DNA from: Gammaproteobacteria bacterium
GTDB taxonomy: Bacteria > Pseudomonadota > Gammaproteobacteria > Pseudomonadales > Halieaceae
Length of the DNA stretch: 64,000 nucleotides
Assembly: GCA_030427085.1 (NCBI GenBank)
Contig: JAUHXH010000004.1
Location: forward strand, 434,001 to 498,000
Reading direction: 5' to 3'
Position 1 is the first letter of the stretch. Each line of letters opens with the position of its first letter. The translations under genes and the position numbers were made by a program. Positions 16,173 through 22,121 of the stretch are shown here, piece by piece. The notes under the pieces were generated by a model, which was not told where the DNA came from, searched no databases, and saw only the letters and a list, made by a program, of their open reading frames with translations.

Positions 16173-17123
16173 ATGATCTGTGTAGTCTCTCCCGAACTCC
16201 CCTGCGGTTCCGCCTGGCTTGCAAACTGCTTTTTCGAGTTGGGTATCCCGGTTTGGAATCTATGGGATGTGGGTGATTCACAATCGTGGCAGCGCACTGG
16301 GTCCAACCGCTATACCTACACTGATCAAGCCACACCCTGGCTTCAGACCCTGCCTGCACTGCGATATGGTCGGGAGTTCGAATTTCTGCAAGACCATGCC
16401 GCCAGTTTTCGTCATGTCTGGCCGGCCTACTGCTCCCGGGAACAAAAAACCCTGTTGTTCGTGAGGGATCCCAGAGATGCACTATATTCTCACTGGCGCA
16501 GGCAGACGTTTAATGACACGTCTTTCAGCCTGACCTTTGAGCAGTTCGTTCACTCTCAGTATCACCACTATCCAATATCTTTCAGGGAGTATTTACTGCT
16601 TTACCTTCATTTGTGGAGGGAGCGGGCGGCGCAGCAAGATGTGTTTGTGGTGAGGTACGAGGACTACCGGCTGGCTGCCACGGAAACACTGACCGCCGTG
16701 CTGCATTTTCTGGGTTTAGAACTACCTGCAGAAAATATTGAGCGGGCCATCCGCCGATCTGATTTCAGCCGGGTTAAAGGTGTTGAAGATCAGATGCAGC
16801 AGGATGGAGAACTGGATCGGCGGTTCAACTATGCAGGTGTTCCCTACGAATACGCGCAACATTTCACTGCCGCCATGCACGATTCTCTGGGAAGTGAATT
16901 CGATGAGTACTATGAATGGTTGGGGTATGAGCCATACGGTTCTCCACGTGAGTTAGCGCGCGGGCCTGGTTCCGGGATTGCTCGACTGGATAGGCTGGTC
17001 GAAGTGATGGCTTGTCAATCATTGGCCAATCAAAACGCTGATCCAAGCCCTGAACCGCAGCGAGAATCTCTAAGGCTGGATTTACAGTCCTGCTCACATC
17101 TTCTCTCAAGTCGCTATTGCTGA
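16173..17123 (+). CDS. Sulfotransferase-fold protein; candidate phosphoramidyl transferase
   Basis: This 316-residue protein has the sulfotransferase fold. An N-terminal PELPCGSAWLANCFFELG resembles the 5'-phosphosulfate-binding loop. LLFVRDPRDALYSHWRR (about residues 94-110) is the 3'-phosphate-binding motif, and VVRYEDYR follows. Sulfotransferases normally use PAPS. Here the neighbours make no PAPS but predict 3'-phospho-CDP-amidate, a donor with the same 3'-phosphonucleotide shape, so I infer transfer of a phosphoramidate to an unknown acceptor. Ordinary sulfation with imported PAPS supply remains possible. Its stop overlaps the next start (TGATG). Confidence 0.75.
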   Translation: MICVVSPELPCGSAWLANCFFELGIPVWNLWDVGDSQSWQRTGSNRYTYTDQATPWLQTLPALRYGREFEFLQDHAASFRHVWPAYCSREQKTLLFVRDPRDALYSHWRRQTFNDTSFSLTFEQFVHSQYHHYPISFREYLLLYLHLWRERAAQQDVFVVRYEDYRLAATETLTAVLHFLGLELPAENIERAIRRSDFSRVKGVEDQMQQDGELDRRFNYAGVPYEYAQHFTAAMHDSLGSEFDEYYEWLGYEPYGSPRELARGPGSGIARLDRLVEVMACQSLANQNADPSPEPQRESLRLDLQSCSHLLSSRYC

Positions 17124-17626
17124 TGGGGAGAGTAATCTGGGTTACCGGGCTGGCCGGTGCGGGTAAAACTAGTCTGGCCAGGGAGCTATTCCACCAACTG
17201 AGCCCAGCCGACCCTTCACTTATTCACCTGGATGGAGAGGATGTACGGGATGTGCTATCTGCCATGCATTTTCACGAGTCGTCCGATCGACGTGAATTGG
17301 CCTTTCGCTACGCCCGCCTGTGTCACTTGCTGGCTGACAGGGGCGCCAGTGTCATCTTCTCCACGATCTCTATGTTCCGCGACGTTCGGGCGTGGAATCG
17401 GGAGCACGTGAGTAACTATACCGAAATTTACTTGAAGTGCTCCGAAGAAACGCTCATGCGCAGGAACAAGAATGGCCTGTACAGCGCTGAAAACGTACAG
17501 GCTATTCCCAATGTTGTGGGTGTCGATATCAAAGCGGAGTTACCCGAAGGCGCTGACCTGACGCTCGTTAATGACGGCGGTGCGACTATATCTGAGTTAG
17601 TGGAGCAAGCGTTGCATGTCATCTGA
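17123..17626 (+). CDS. APS-kinase-like protein; predicted cytidine diphosphoramidate 3'-kinase (Cj1415-like)
   Basis: The 167-residue P-loop kinase resembles CysC. It has Walker A GLAGAGKTS at residues 9-17, LDGEDVRDVL at 36-45, and STISMFRDVRAWNR in place of the usual ISPFR region. No other sulfate-assimilation gene (cysD, cysN, cysH) is near. Its neighbours instead match the Campylobacter jejuni phosphoramidate set, in which the CysC homologue Cj1415 phosphorylates the 3'-OH of CDP-amidate. I infer that activity. ATG 17123 overlaps the stop of the sulfotransferase-like gene. A true APS kinase is the alternative. Confidence 0.75.
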   Translation: MGRVIWVTGLAGAGKTSLARELFHQLSPADPSLIHLDGEDVRDVLSAMHFHESSDRRELAFRYARLCHLLADRGASVIFSTISMFRDVRAWNREHVSNYTEIYLKCSEETLMRRNKNGLYSAENVQAIPNVVGVDIKAELPEGADLTLVNDGGATISELVEQALHVI

Positions 17627-18380
17627 GGGCCTCAAGCTGGCATGGGATTACTCGCCATTGGCAAAGTTCTATGCCAAACGTCCCGGGTATCCAGAACAAA
17701 TCATTGATCGCATAGCCAGCCATATTAACCTTGGCCAGGAATGGTCCGTGTGTGACATAGGCGCCGGGACAGGCAACCTGACTTCACTGCTGTCCGAATA
17801 TGCGAACAGTGTTATTGCCGTTGAGCCAAACTCCGCGATGCGCGCGGAGGGGCTCAGGGCGACGTCGAGCAAAGTTAATGTTCACTGGATCGCGGCCACG
17901 GGCGAGAACACGGGGTTGGAAACGGGTGCCGTTGATCTCGCGGCCTTTGGGTCTTCATTTAATGTTGTGGATCTGTCTTTGGCCCTGCCTGAGGCAAAAC
18001 GCATTTGTCGACCGGGTGGCTGGTTACTGGCTATTTGGAACTATCGTGACCTTGACGACCCGATACAGCAGAAGATCGAGCGCGCTATTAAACAGCTTTT
18101 ACCTGACTATTCCCTTGGCTCCCGTCGGAGCAACTGGGAGTTGTTTTTAAATGAAACAGGTGCGTTCTCCAGCGTTACCGAGTTTTCCCACAAGACCATT
18201 CATAGACAGGCGCCCGACGATATTCTTGAAGCGTGGCGCTCACACGCGACTCTGGCTCGTCAGGCGGGCCACCTGTTTCCGGCCGTGCTGGCGGAAATCG
18301 AATGCATCCTTGCTCCGTACGCCGGCTCCGCGGTGTCGGTACCTTACACCAGCAAGGCCTGGGCAGCGCAGTTCCGTTGA
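17616..18380 (+). CDS. Class I SAM-dependent methyltransferase (phosphoramidate operon)
   Basis: The 254-residue cytosolic protein has the SAM-binding motif VCDIGAGTGNLTSLL at about residues 45-59 and the acidic strand end VIAVEPN. The N-terminal YSPLAKFYAKRPGYPEQIID is typical of the ubiE/COQ5-like superfamily. Its place between the predicted kinase and the glutamine kinase parallels Cj1419/Cj1420, the two methyltransferases of the C. jejuni cluster, so the likely product is an O-methyl phosphoramidate. Only one methyltransferase is present here. The start overlaps the previous gene by 11 bp. Confidence 0.78.
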   Translation: MSSEGLKLAWDYSPLAKFYAKRPGYPEQIIDRIASHINLGQEWSVCDIGAGTGNLTSLLSEYANSVIAVEPNSAMRAEGLRATSSKVNVHWIAATGENTGLETGAVDLAAFGSSFNVVDLSLALPEAKRICRPGGWLLAIWNYRDLDDPIQQKIERAIKQLLPDYSLGSRRSNWELFLNETGAFSSVTEFSHKTIHRQAPDDILEAWRSHATLARQAGHLFPAVLAEIECILAPYAGSAVSVPYTSKAWAAQFR

Positions 18381-20737
18381 ATAGCACGTCGCTGGCTGCT
18401 GCGCCGCAGGTGGAGTTTGAGTCGAAGGCGGGCACGCTCGCCCGGTTGTTCGGTAAGCTGGAGCACGCTACGGTACTCCCGCAAATATCCTTCACTGTCG
18501 ATCAATGGCTTCGCAGCGGCGGGCGATGGACGAACTTCCAATGCAATGAACCCTGGCTGGACGGGGCACTCATCGTGAGGAGTAGCGCCACTACAGAGGA
18601 TCAACCCCGTTGTTCAGGGGCGGGGCGCTTCCTTTCTATTGGCGATATAAGCAATGAGCCTGATCTGGAACGGGCCATTTCTTCGGTGATTGCAGCCTAT
18701 GGTGACGCCCGGGTCGACCATGAAGTGTTGGTGCAACCTATGTTGCAAGATGCCTCAGTCTACGGTGTGGGGCTGAGTTACTCGCCGGCTGAGCGCGCTC
18801 CGTACTACTTGCTTAATTACGATGCGACCTCTGGCAGGCACGATGCCGTTACCAGTGGCTCGAGTACTGACATCCGTACCTGTTATGTCGCGCGAAATGC
18901 GAGGATTCAGCCGGGCGGTTGGAAGTCGCGCGTGATAAAGCTGCTGAAGGAACTCGAAGGCATCTTTTCGACAGAAGAACTCGACATTGAGTTTGACGCC
19001 TCCCGCTCCGGCGAACTCTACTTGTTGCAGGTTCGTCCCCTAACGGGTGTTTCCAATCCGCTGTGTAGCATGGCGGATCACAAACTGGCGCTGCAGAATG
19101 CGGCCGCGCGCTTTTCCAGCGCGCAGAAAGCTCCTGCGCCGCTGCTGGGAAAACGAGCCATCTGGGGCCTGATGGCGGACTGGAATCCTGCCGAGATTAT
19201 TGGTGTTCGCCCGAGGCCCCTCAGCTACTCTCTGTATAAATACCTGGTCACTGATAATAGTTGGGCCGAAAAACGCTTCGAGTACGGTTACCGGGATGTG
19301 CGAGGGGTGCCCCTCATGCATTCGGTGGGTGGGGTGCCCTACATCGATGTACGAGCGAGTTTCAGTTCCCTAATTCCCCGTTCAATCTCCGATGACTTTG
19401 CTGCTCGTCTGGTGGATTGGTATGGGGACGAATTACTAATGCAACCACAATGGCACGACAAGATCGAAGCCAGGGTGCTGAGCTGCGTTGAAAGCCTGTC
19501 GCCCACCCGCCCACTGGACTCACGATTGCTGGGGCCAGTGTCCGAAGCGGAATGCGAGGCCTTGGCGGCAGCCCAGCGTCAGTTGAATCGGAATATTCTT
19601 GATCGGTCCGATGGACACTGGCTCAAAGACATTGCTCTGGTCAGTGAGCTACCCGCACTTCACGCAGCGCAACTTCGCATCGAAGATTCCAGAGAGCGCC
19701 TTCGCGGCTTGCTCTCGGTGTGCACAAGCCATGGCACACTGCCGTTCGCCGGACTCGCACGTGTCGCCTTCATCGCCGCCGGTTTTCTGCAGTCCATGGT
19801 GCGTGACGGCATTCTGTCCGACAGGGAGAGAGCGGCTGTGTTGAGCGCCGCGTCAACGATCAGCTCCACCGTGCTCCACGATTTTCACACGCTGGATGAA
19901 TCGCGTTTCATGGCACGATACGGCCACATGCGACCTTCCATGTATGACATTTTATCGCCGCGCTACGATGACGCTTATCAGCGCTATTTCCCCGAGGCTT
20001 CTGCTCGCGCTCGTCCCTCTGGTCCCGCGGTAAATACAGGGTTCAGCCTATCCGCCAGGCAGCATGAATTGATTCAAGGGCTGTTGGTCTTTCATCACCT
20101 GGACGACTATACGCCCGATGAGTTTATGGCGCTTATTGGCCATGCCATTCGCTGGCGGGAGCAGGGCAAGTTTTTGTTTTCTGCCACGCTGAGCGATCTG
20201 TTGGAAACCTGTAAAGCCGTAGGCGCAGAACATGACCTTAGCGTCGAAGATGTTTCATATCTGGACGTGGAACACTTACTTTCTTCCCTGGATGTTGGCG
20301 CGACCGGGGATATGTTGCGGGCCCGCCGCCACCGGTTCAATGTGACGCGAAGCCTGAAAGTACCTCCGCTGGTGAGCGCGCCTGAAGATTTCTACAGTTT
20401 CGAAGTGCCTCGGCATTACCCCACTTATATTTCGCAGCAGAAAGTTGTTGGGCCAGTGGTCACTTTGTCAGAGCGATCGGGCCTGTCGTTACCAGAAATT
20501 GAGGGGAAAATTGTCGTGCTTGAGGCGGCAGACCCGGGATACGACTGGATCTTCACGCACCGCGTACTCGGGTTTATCACGCTCTACGGCGGGTCAAACT
20601 CACACATGGCCATTCGCGCCGCGGAGCATGGCGTACCAGCGGCGCTGGGTGTGGGTGAGTCGATTTATCAGGTCTGTGTAAGCGCGTCCGTTCTCGAGCT
20701 GGATTGTATGGCCGAACAAATCATCCCAGTGCTATGA
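18377..20737 (+). CDS. PEP-synthase-like kinase; predicted L-glutamine kinase (Cj1418-like)
   Basis: The 786-residue protein has the two ends of a PEP-synthase-type phosphotransferase. An N-terminal ATP-grasp part carries LIVRSSATTEDQPRCSGAG (about 66-84) and ELYLLQVRPLTG. A C-terminal swivelling phosphohistidine domain, YGGSNSHMAIRAAEHGVPAA, has the acceptor His at about 743. There is no PEP/pyruvate barrel. In C. jejuni, Cj1418 of this build phosphorylates the amide nitrogen of glutamine with ATP, and I infer the same here. The start is TTG 18377, which overlaps the methyltransferase stop (TTGA); an upstream frame would run deep into that gene. Confidence 0.82.
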   Translation: MNSTSLAAAPQVEFESKAGTLARLFGKLEHATVLPQISFTVDQWLRSGGRWTNFQCNEPWLDGALIVRSSATTEDQPRCSGAGRFLSIGDISNEPDLERAISSVIAAYGDARVDHEVLVQPMLQDASVYGVGLSYSPAERAPYYLLNYDATSGRHDAVTSGSSTDIRTCYVARNARIQPGGWKSRVIKLLKELEGIFSTEELDIEFDASRSGELYLLQVRPLTGVSNPLCSMADHKLALQNAAARFSSAQKAPAPLLGKRAIWGLMADWNPAEIIGVRPRPLSYSLYKYLVTDNSWAEKRFEYGYRDVRGVPLMHSVGGVPYIDVRASFSSLIPRSISDDFAARLVDWYGDELLMQPQWHDKIEARVLSCVESLSPTRPLDSRLLGPVSEAECEALAAAQRQLNRNILDRSDGHWLKDIALVSELPALHAAQLRIEDSRERLRGLLSVCTSHGTLPFAGLARVAFIAAGFLQSMVRDGILSDRERAAVLSAASTISSTVLHDFHTLDESRFMARYGHMRPSMYDILSPRYDDAYQRYFPEASARARPSGPAVNTGFSLSARQHELIQGLLVFHHLDDYTPDEFMALIGHAIRWREQGKFLFSATLSDLLETCKAVGAEHDLSVEDVSYLDVEHLLSSLDVGATGDMLRARRHRFNVTRSLKVPPLVSAPEDFYSFEVPRHYPTYISQQKVVGPVVTLSERSGLSLPEIEGKIVVLEAADPGYDWIFTHRVLGFITLYGGSNSHMAIRAAEHGVPAALGVGESIYQVCVSASVLELDCMAEQIIPVL

Positions 20738-21366
20738 AAAGGGTCCTGGTGACACAGCGCTGTGACTTTGATGCGTCCAGAGGCGAGTGGCGAGACAGCC
20801 TTGATAAGCGATGGGCTGATTTATTGCAGGCTGCGAACGTGTTTCCGGTTTTGGTGCCGAATAATTTGAGTTACGTTAGCCATGTCCTCGCCACCGAAAC
20901 ATTCGACGGGTTGCTGTTAACAGGCGGTGCCTCTCTGGCTGACCACGGTGGGCCACCCTCTGATCGGGACGCCGTGGAGCTTCATCTGCTGGAAGCGAGC
21001 ATTCGCAGTGCTACGCCGGTGCTGGGTGTCTGCCGTGGAATGCAGGTGATTCAGCATTACTACAATCATAGTTTAGGGAAAATGGAAGGCCATGCAGGCG
21101 CTACCTGGGCTCTTACGGAGGTGTATAGCAGCGAGCTGTGGGCGCCGTTTCGCCAGATTGAGCATTTGCGGTTTTACCACGAACTTGGGTGTCTGCACTC
21201 CCACCTCCCCCTATTGAGTGCTGCGATCACATCAGACAAGGTGGTTGTGGCCTTGCAGCATGTTGATAAGCCTGTATTCGGCATAATGTGGCATCCGGAG
21301 CGGGAGGTGGAAAGTAGATCGGTGCAAATCGAATTTCTCCAAAAAATCTTTCACGCACAGACATGA
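20734..21366 (+). CDS. Class I glutamine-amidotransferase-like hydrolase; predicted gamma-glutamyl-CDP-amidate hydrolase (Cj1417-like)
   Basis: This 210-residue stand-alone GATase-fold protein keeps the triad: nucleophile Cys100 in LGVCRGMQVIQ, then His187 and Glu189 in IMWHPERE. TGGASLADHGG precedes the nucleophile elbow, as in the peptidase C26 family. In the C. jejuni pathway the homologue Cj1417 cleaves CDP-glutamine to CDP-amidate and glutamate, which fits its place here between the kinase and cytidylyltransferase. ATG 20734 overlaps the upstream stop as ATGA. A gamma-glutamyl peptidase of other use is the alternative. Confidence 0.8.
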   Translation: MKRVLVTQRCDFDASRGEWRDSLDKRWADLLQAANVFPVLVPNNLSYVSHVLATETFDGLLLTGGASLADHGGPPSDRDAVELHLLEASIRSATPVLGVCRGMQVIQHYYNHSLGKMEGHAGATWALTEVYSSELWAPFRQIEHLRFYHELGCLHSHLPLLSAAITSDKVVVALQHVDKPVFGIMWHPEREVESRSVQIEFLQKIFHAQT

Positions 21367-22121
21367 GAGCCTTGATTCTCGCTGCAGGTCGAGGGCGGCG
21401 TATGGGGCAGCTCACAGAAAACTCCCCGAAATGTCTTCTGGAGATTTTCGGTAGACCCTTGATCGAGTGGCAGCTCAAGGCGCTTCGCGAAGTGGGTATC
21501 AGTGAGTTAGGTATTGTGACGGGATACCTCGCTGGGCAGATTGACTACGACCTTACCTATTTCCACAACGAGGAATGGGCCAGTTCCAATATGGTGACTT
21601 CGCTGCTGTCTGCGGCCGACTGGTTGCAGCATTCATCCTGCGTTGTAAGTTATAGCGATATCGTTTACTCCAGTGACGCGCTTACCCGTCTCATCTCATC
21701 TCCCGGCGACATTGTGTTGACCTTTGATCCCAACTGGCTGGAACTGTGGCAGTTGCGGTTCGATAACCCACTCATCGACGCCGAGTGTTTCCGCGAGGAA
21801 AACGGGATGCTTCAGGAAATCGGCGGGAGGGCGTCCACGACGGAAGATATACGGGGCCAGTATATGGGGCTGGTCAAAGTAACACCGGCGGGATGGAAGT
21901 CGATTGAAGAAACTTTGGCCAGCCTCCCCCCCGAGAGGGTGAAATCGCTGGATATGACGGGATTATTCAGTCTTATGCTCGAACGGGGAGTGGAAATCCG
22001 TGCAGTGCCGGTCAGGGATGCCTGGGTGGAAGTTGATACGCTGGAAGATCTGGCCTGCTATAACCAGGGCAGTGCCGACTACATACGGCGTGCCTGGTTA
22101 ATGGGAGTGAACACAACTTAA
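21363..22121 (+). CDS. Sugar-nucleotidyltransferase-like protein; predicted CTP:phosphoglutamine cytidylyltransferase (Cj1416-like)
   Basis: The 252-residue protein has the nucleotidyltransferase Rossmann signature MRALILAAGRGRRMG at its start, PKCLLEIFGRPLIEWQL next, and a SYSDIVY metal-site motif near residue 100. In C. jejuni the homologue Cj1416 joins CTP and N-phosphoglutamine to CDP-glutamine. The position, last in an ATGA-linked chain, supports that reading. A sugar-1-phosphate or phosphocholine cytidylyltransferase is possible on sequence alone. No clear terminator follows in the 78 bp before the convergent AhpA/YtjB gene. Confidence 0.8.
   Translation: MRALILAAGRGRRMGQLTENSPKCLLEIFGRPLIEWQLKALREVGISELGIVTGYLAGQIDYDLTYFHNEEWASSNMVTSLLSAADWLQHSSCVVSYSDIVYSSDALTRLISSPGDIVLTFDPNWLELWQLRFDNPLIDAECFREENGMLQEIGGRASTTEDIRGQYMGLVKVTPAGWKSIEETLASLPPERVKSLDMTGLFSLMLERGVEIRAVPVRDAWVEVDTLEDLACYNQGSADYIRRAWLMGVNTT

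Follow-up and report, generated by a model that had tools for sequence, protein, structure and literature searches.

In Campylobacter jejuni, the steps of phosphoramidate synthesis are established as far as a 3'-phosphorylated CDP-amidate, a puzzling compound regarded as the probable donor (PMC11800397), and Cj1421 and Cj1422 were identified as MeOPN transferases by knock-outs (PMC3907429, PMC11800397). Both contain DUF2972, a domain of undefined function (PMC5808241). A 2022 review regarded the glutamine kinase as specific to C. jejuni (PMC9561416). In the open full-text literature we found no earlier proposal of a sulfotransferase-type phosphoramidate transferase, nor any work joining sulfotransferase, phosphoramidate and capsular polysaccharide.

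Within the window, i.e. the whole stretch of 64,000 nucleotides that was analyzed, six overlapping genes on the plus strand form an operon from 16173 to 22121. The first (16173-17123) encodes a protein of 316 amino acids with a sulfotransferase fold, which probably serves an O-methyl-phosphoramidate-type cassette as its acceptor-side phosphoramidyl transferase. The second (17123-17626) is an APS-kinase homologue (PF01583, 94.3 bits) whose best model is NF004041 (168 bits against a cut-off of 127), while TIGR00455 reaches only 93.7 of the 138.7 bits needed; judging by these scores it is not a CysC equivalog but a predicted, Cj1415-like CDP-amidate 3'-kinase. Next come a class I SAM methyltransferase (17616-18380; PF08241), conserved across most cassettes and predicted to be the phosphoramidate O-methyltransferase, and a Cj1418-like glutamine kinase (18377-20737), an assignment made secure by the NF004508 score of 747.9 bits (cut-off 501). 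The operon ends with a class I glutamine-amidotransferase-type hydrolase (20734-21366), predicted to act on gamma-glutamyl-CDP-amidate although its best NCBIfam model, NF045546, scores 80 bits and thus below the cut-off of 250, and with a MobA-like nucleotidyltransferase (21363-22121; PF12804, 70.9 bits) at a conserved cassette position, the predicted CTP:phosphoglutamine cytidylyltransferase. No match to the TagF-type family PF04464 was found by Pfam in the six proteins.

The overlap of the first gene with the APS-kinase homologue, already pointed out in the sequence-only reading, was confirmed. At this junction, TGATG, the stop TGA at 17121-17123 overlaps an in-frame kinase ATG at 17123, and the overlap grows to 7 nt if a TTG at 17117 is taken as the start. 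The next overlap is 11 nt, and each of the last three is 4 nt; these figures depend on inferred gene starts, including the TTG of the glutamine kinase, which overlaps the upstream TGA. The surroundings consist of housekeeping genes, and no acceptor, glycan or capsule genes adjoin. On one side the operon borders a topoisomerase IV subunit A-like gene, and on the other a SerB-like gene follows after a single intervening reading frame. GC content is 53-58% between 16000 and 22000 of the window and 58-64% in the flanks, which fits horizontal acquisition.

The 316-residue protein matched Sulfotransfer_1 (PF00685) over residues 87-241 (E 1.4e-15; 57.8 bits, cut-off 22). Sulfotransferase families were the sole Pfam matches, and DUF2972 (PF11186) was not found by this search. 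PDB sulfotransferases were matched in phmmer and hmmsearch, and a profile built from it together with four relatives matched 49 PDB sulfotransferase-fold sequences at E <= 0.001. An AF2 model based on five sequences was of moderate quality (pLDDT 68, pTM 0.68). All of its top 50 Foldseek matches were sulfotransferases (best E 6e-8), and VIA superposed it on PAP-bound SULT7A1 with a Z of 16.4 over 210 residues (rmsd 3.5). Membership of the sulfotransferase superfamily is thereby confirmed. The whole source genome has 14 Sulfotransfer_1 matches.

The protein had been credited with both phosphonucleotide-binding motifs of sulfotransferases, which proved half right, since Pro10 replaces the lysine of the 5' loop and the RKG motif is gone. 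The 3'-PSB motif RDPRDALYS (16464-16490, plus strand), the predicted 3'-phosphate site, is intact, with R98 and S106 at the spacing of eight seen in the SULT 3'-PSB. The SULT 5'-PSB reads PKSGTTW and includes the catalytic lysine. In the degenerate loop S6-L16 (SPELPCGSAWL; 16188-16220, plus strand), Gly12 and Trp15 are retained and set the register in which Pro10 takes the position of this lysine. A 5'-loop Lys or Arg is also absent from the relatives in loci L040, L042, L053, L107 and L173. The C-terminal RKG, a 3'-phosphate motif, reads NYAG in the present protein and is more or less retained in L040 and L107. The missing 5'-PSB lysine and RKG arginine could also reflect an activity that was altered or lost. 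With two PAPS-contact motifs degenerate and no acceptor or glycan genes nearby, the protein might be an accessory factor or a relic with a sulfotransferase fold, and the actual transferase might be encoded elsewhere in the genome. We regard this as improbable, as the gene is open and tightly coupled, shows 31-48% identity across separate lineages, and has kept both RDPRD and His81 (16413-16415, plus strand) invariant in an alignment of five window-type proteins. His81 is a candidate general base and the putative equivalent of the SULT histidine.

The sequence-only reading would have been refuted had this subfamily been missing from other phosphoramidate clusters, but it is present in them. Window-type homologues lie within a few kb of a glutamine kinase in G007 (L040), L042, L053 (two copies), L078, L107, L110 and G649 (L173), those of L078 and L110 being distant relatives, and wherever this was checked the window-type protein was seen only with the cassette. 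Genome G007 has the same six genes, its sulfotransferase-fold protein being 31% identical to the one in the window. The class was sampled with 369 genomes, and a close homologue (E <= 1e-10) turned up only in the source genome and in G649. The G649 operon is ordered differently (hydrolase, glutamine kinase, methyltransferase, cytidylyltransferase, kinase, sulfotransferase-fold gene), yet the overlap between the last two genes is retained (8 nt). Neither window-type relatives nor DUF2972 were found in the viral contigs scanned.

A wider survey covered glutamine-kinase relatives and their surroundings from 80 genome contigs of many phyla, and about 90 related operons were compared overall; the loci, ordered by their resemblance to the query, are not independent of each other in phylogenetic terms. 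Across many phyla, roughly every second locus examined had a sulfotransferase-fold gene next to the glutamine kinase. The density of such genes was 65 per Mb at less than 2.5 kb from the kinase, 44 at 2.5-5 kb, 6 at 5-7.5 kb and 0 at 7.5-10 kb. A second sulfotransferase-fold family adjoins the cassette in 30 of the 80 loci, again in many phyla. Most of its members tested match Sulfotransfer_3 (PF13469), and some match weakly or not at all. The Clostridial-type member L079, whose genome gave no Sulfotransfer_3 match with Pfam, is the sole one below the Pfam cut-off with its fold checked: the model (pLDDT 86.6) has a sulfotransferase fold, with a Z of 13.8 to CurM, and all 50 VIA entries listed were sulfotransferases. 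Two further candidates for this family, L074 and L114, were rejected because they are AMP-binding enzymes. Neighbors that had looked like possible transferases and were likewise dropped turned out to be a biotin carboxylase, UvrD helicase, flagellin, ABC transporter, radical SAM enzyme and cytochrome.

Other loci have TagF-like genes, and the two types tend to exclude each other, as expected from two solutions for one slot. Of the 72 loci with 4 kb or more of flanking sequence, 34 had only a sulfotransferase-fold or DUF2972 gene, 22 only a TagF-like gene, 5 both and 11 neither (Fisher p = 2.7e-6; p = 1.1e-5 after leaving out Campylobacterales and L039), the p values being indicative because loosely defined TagF profiles were used and the loci are related. 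In L039, one of the five loci with both, the sulfotransferase is a canonical one (PKCGRTW) about 4 kb off. A rule by which the 3'-kinase goes with sulfotransferase-fold genes and its absence with TagF-like genes was rejected, as TagF-like genes also accompany the kinase.

The predicted 3'-phosphate had been explained by the sulfotransferase fold, which would need such a handle. This holds only in part: it is attractive for loci with sulfotransferase-fold genes, but no such gene was found within 7 kb in 29 of the 66 kinase-positive flanked loci, and 19 of those 29 had a TagF-like gene; the 3'-phosphate is therefore not tied to this fold alone. TagF-like genes were also found in four of the six flanked loci without the kinase, and CDP-amidate itself may thus be the donor for some transferases. 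That the protein in the window likewise uses CDP-amidate directly, with the kinase product serving another step or regulating the pool, is highly improbable given the invariant RDPRD 3'-phosphate motif of window-type proteins and the overlap of the kinase gene with the sulfotransferase-fold gene.

Several other features of the surveyed loci were recorded. In the Acidobacteria-type loci L049, L054, L058, L063, L070, L089 and L098, an APS-kinase-like domain is fused N-terminally to the glutamine kinase, which ties the 3'-kinase to the pathway. A second nucleotidyltransferase-like domain occupies the glutamine kinase N-terminus in L039 (8067-11075) and L136 (9322-12372), where the APS-kinase homologue is missing and a TagF-like gene is present. 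Genes for CysQ-like 3'(2'),5'-bisphosphate nucleotidases adjoin the cassette in L053, L056, L065, L095, L096, L109, L132 and L135; one of the eight lies above the curated cut-off and the rest below, and they are not confined to loci with sulfotransferase-fold genes. This association fits a 3'-phosphorylated donor, which would leave cytidine 3',5'-bisphosphate. In the Pseudomonas-type loci L052 (8389-9753), L060, L062 and L073, the cassette adjoins a gene for flagellin (identified by Pfam in one member), which suggests phosphoramidate on flagellin glycans.

The main rival explanation is an ordinary PAPS-dependent sulfotransferase, adding sulfate to the very glycan or metabolite to which the other operon products attach phosphoramidate. 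The fold would be correct for it. No sulfate-activation gene was found in the operon or among its immediate neighbors, so that the earlier statement that none is nearby holds to that extent; activation genes are situated on another contig of the source genome, with a true APS kinase (CysC) and an ATP sulfurylase at G000:C5:259472 and 260600, and PAPS is therefore probably available. At L096 (3362-8628), moreover, a fused ATP-sulfurylase/APS kinase, a second-family sulfotransferase-fold sequence and a CysQ-like gene lie beside the phosphoramidate cassette, and sulfate and phosphoramidate transfer may coexist there.

Against ordinary sulfation, 14 of 30 genomes with a cassette and a sulfotransferase-fold gene (G256, G258, G259, G263, G265-G270, G273, G275, G277 and G283) had neither a CysD match (E <= 1e-20) nor an ATP-sulfurylase match, several of them being MAGs that may be incomplete, while Eubacterium sp. 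14-2, Lachnospiraceae 28-4 and Anaerotruncus colihominis are strain assemblies. In genomes G254, G259, G271 and G263 the cassette genes are apparently the sole Sulfotransfer_3 matches. Most genomes without sulfate activation have the second family, and the argument is weaker for the window-type group, where L110 (G283) is the only such case among the carriers tested. In the second family, the 5'-loop arginine is kept in members from Acidobacteria and Planctomycetes and lost in most Clostridial ones, roughly in parallel with the loss of sulfate activation, a pattern confounded by phylogeny. Ordinary sulfation also sits poorly with the loss of the 5'-PSB lysine in every window-type relative inspected, with the tendency of sulfotransferase-fold genes to exclude TagF-like genes, and with the overlap with a non-CysC kinase in two gene orders. 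We therefore consider it unlikely, though the ability of the genome to make PAPS speaks for it; the original suggestion of a sulfotransferase fold acting as phosphoramidyl transferase is supported in part, by the fold itself and by its recurrence in phosphoramidate clusters.

Transfer of phosphoramidate is thus the favored function of the protein in the window, because of its fold, the intact 3'-phosphate motif, the overlapping operon, the recurrence in other clusters, the tendency to exclude TagF-like genes and the genomes in which ATP sulfurylase was not detected. For the pathway as a whole, we infer the donor, direction of transfer, acceptor and order of methylation as follows, the enzyme steps being taken from the Campylobacter literature. 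The glutamine kinase would form L-glutamine phosphate, from which the cytidylyltransferase would make gamma-glutamyl-CDP-amidate; the hydrolase would free CDP-amidate, and the APS-kinase homologue would add the 3'-phosphate. The sulfotransferase-fold protein would then bind this 3'-phosphonucleotide and deliver PO2-NH2, where an ordinary sulfotransferase would deliver SO3, to a hydroxyl group of the acceptor, with release of cytidine 3',5'-bisphosphate, and the SAM enzyme would methylate the product.

The DUF2972 proteins of Campylobacter-type loci show some resemblance to this group. Many have an HGxG-type loop, and a near-invariant RDPIS follows a hydrophobic strand. When a DUF2972 profile was compared with 44 profiles, three sulfotransferase profiles ranked first (E 0.0005-0.004, the best other being 0.02), and the longest alignment spans the RDP motif and a later YED-like segment; the hhalign probability was at most 32%, i.e. 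no significant homology, and single profile pairs scored low. Against the PDB, a smaller DUF2972 profile gave a weak match to heparan sulfate 3-O-sulfotransferase (E 0.5) that was gone with a larger profile, whose sole match was 6bdd (E 1.7e-4), an apparently unrelated protein. The shared motifs are suggestive only of a possible common fold. On a wider scale, we tentatively propose, with slightly more doubt than belief, that 3'-phospho-CDP-amidate is a second PAPS-like group-transfer currency in many bacterial phyla, and that the sulfotransferase fold was adapted to it on several occasions (in window-type PF00685 proteins, the Sulfotransfer_3-like family and possibly Campylobacter DUF2972) so as to carry PO2-NH2 rather than SO3.

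A sulfotransferase-type transferase would, if true, provide a mechanism, give the 3'-phosphate a role in loci with sulfotransferase-fold genes, and supply a testable active site. As the survey found the glutamine kinase in cassettes of many phyla, bacteria may attach phosphoramidate to their products far more often than is currently known.

Compared with known systems, the operon shares with Cj1415-Cj1418 of C. jejuni the glutamine kinase, the cytidylyltransferase, the hydrolase and the APS-kinase-like 3'-kinase, and in both cases a methyltransferase belongs to the cluster (PMC11800397). The C. jejuni transferases are DUF2972 proteins (PMC5808241), whereas the operon candidate is a recognizable PF00685 protein without DUF2972 and without adjoining capsule genes. 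With the cytosolic and bacterial PAPS sulfotransferases of the SULT family (PF00685) this candidate shares the fold, the R...S of the 3'-PSB, and the Gly and Trp of the P-loop; unlike SULTs, which have the catalytic 5'-PSB lysine and RKG, it lacks both and is situated in a phosphoramidate operon. The second cassette family has the same fold as Sulfotransfer_3 (PF13469) proteins and as the tyrosylprotein and heparan sulfate sulfotransferases, but a 5'-PSB Lys/Arg is often absent from its members, many of which belong to genomes without detected ATP sulfurylase. Finally, the TagF-type CDP-glycerol:glycerophosphotransferases (PF04464), GT-B-fold enzymes using a CDP donor without 3'-phosphate, are unrelated to the protein in the window, yet appear to fill the same slot in other cassettes.
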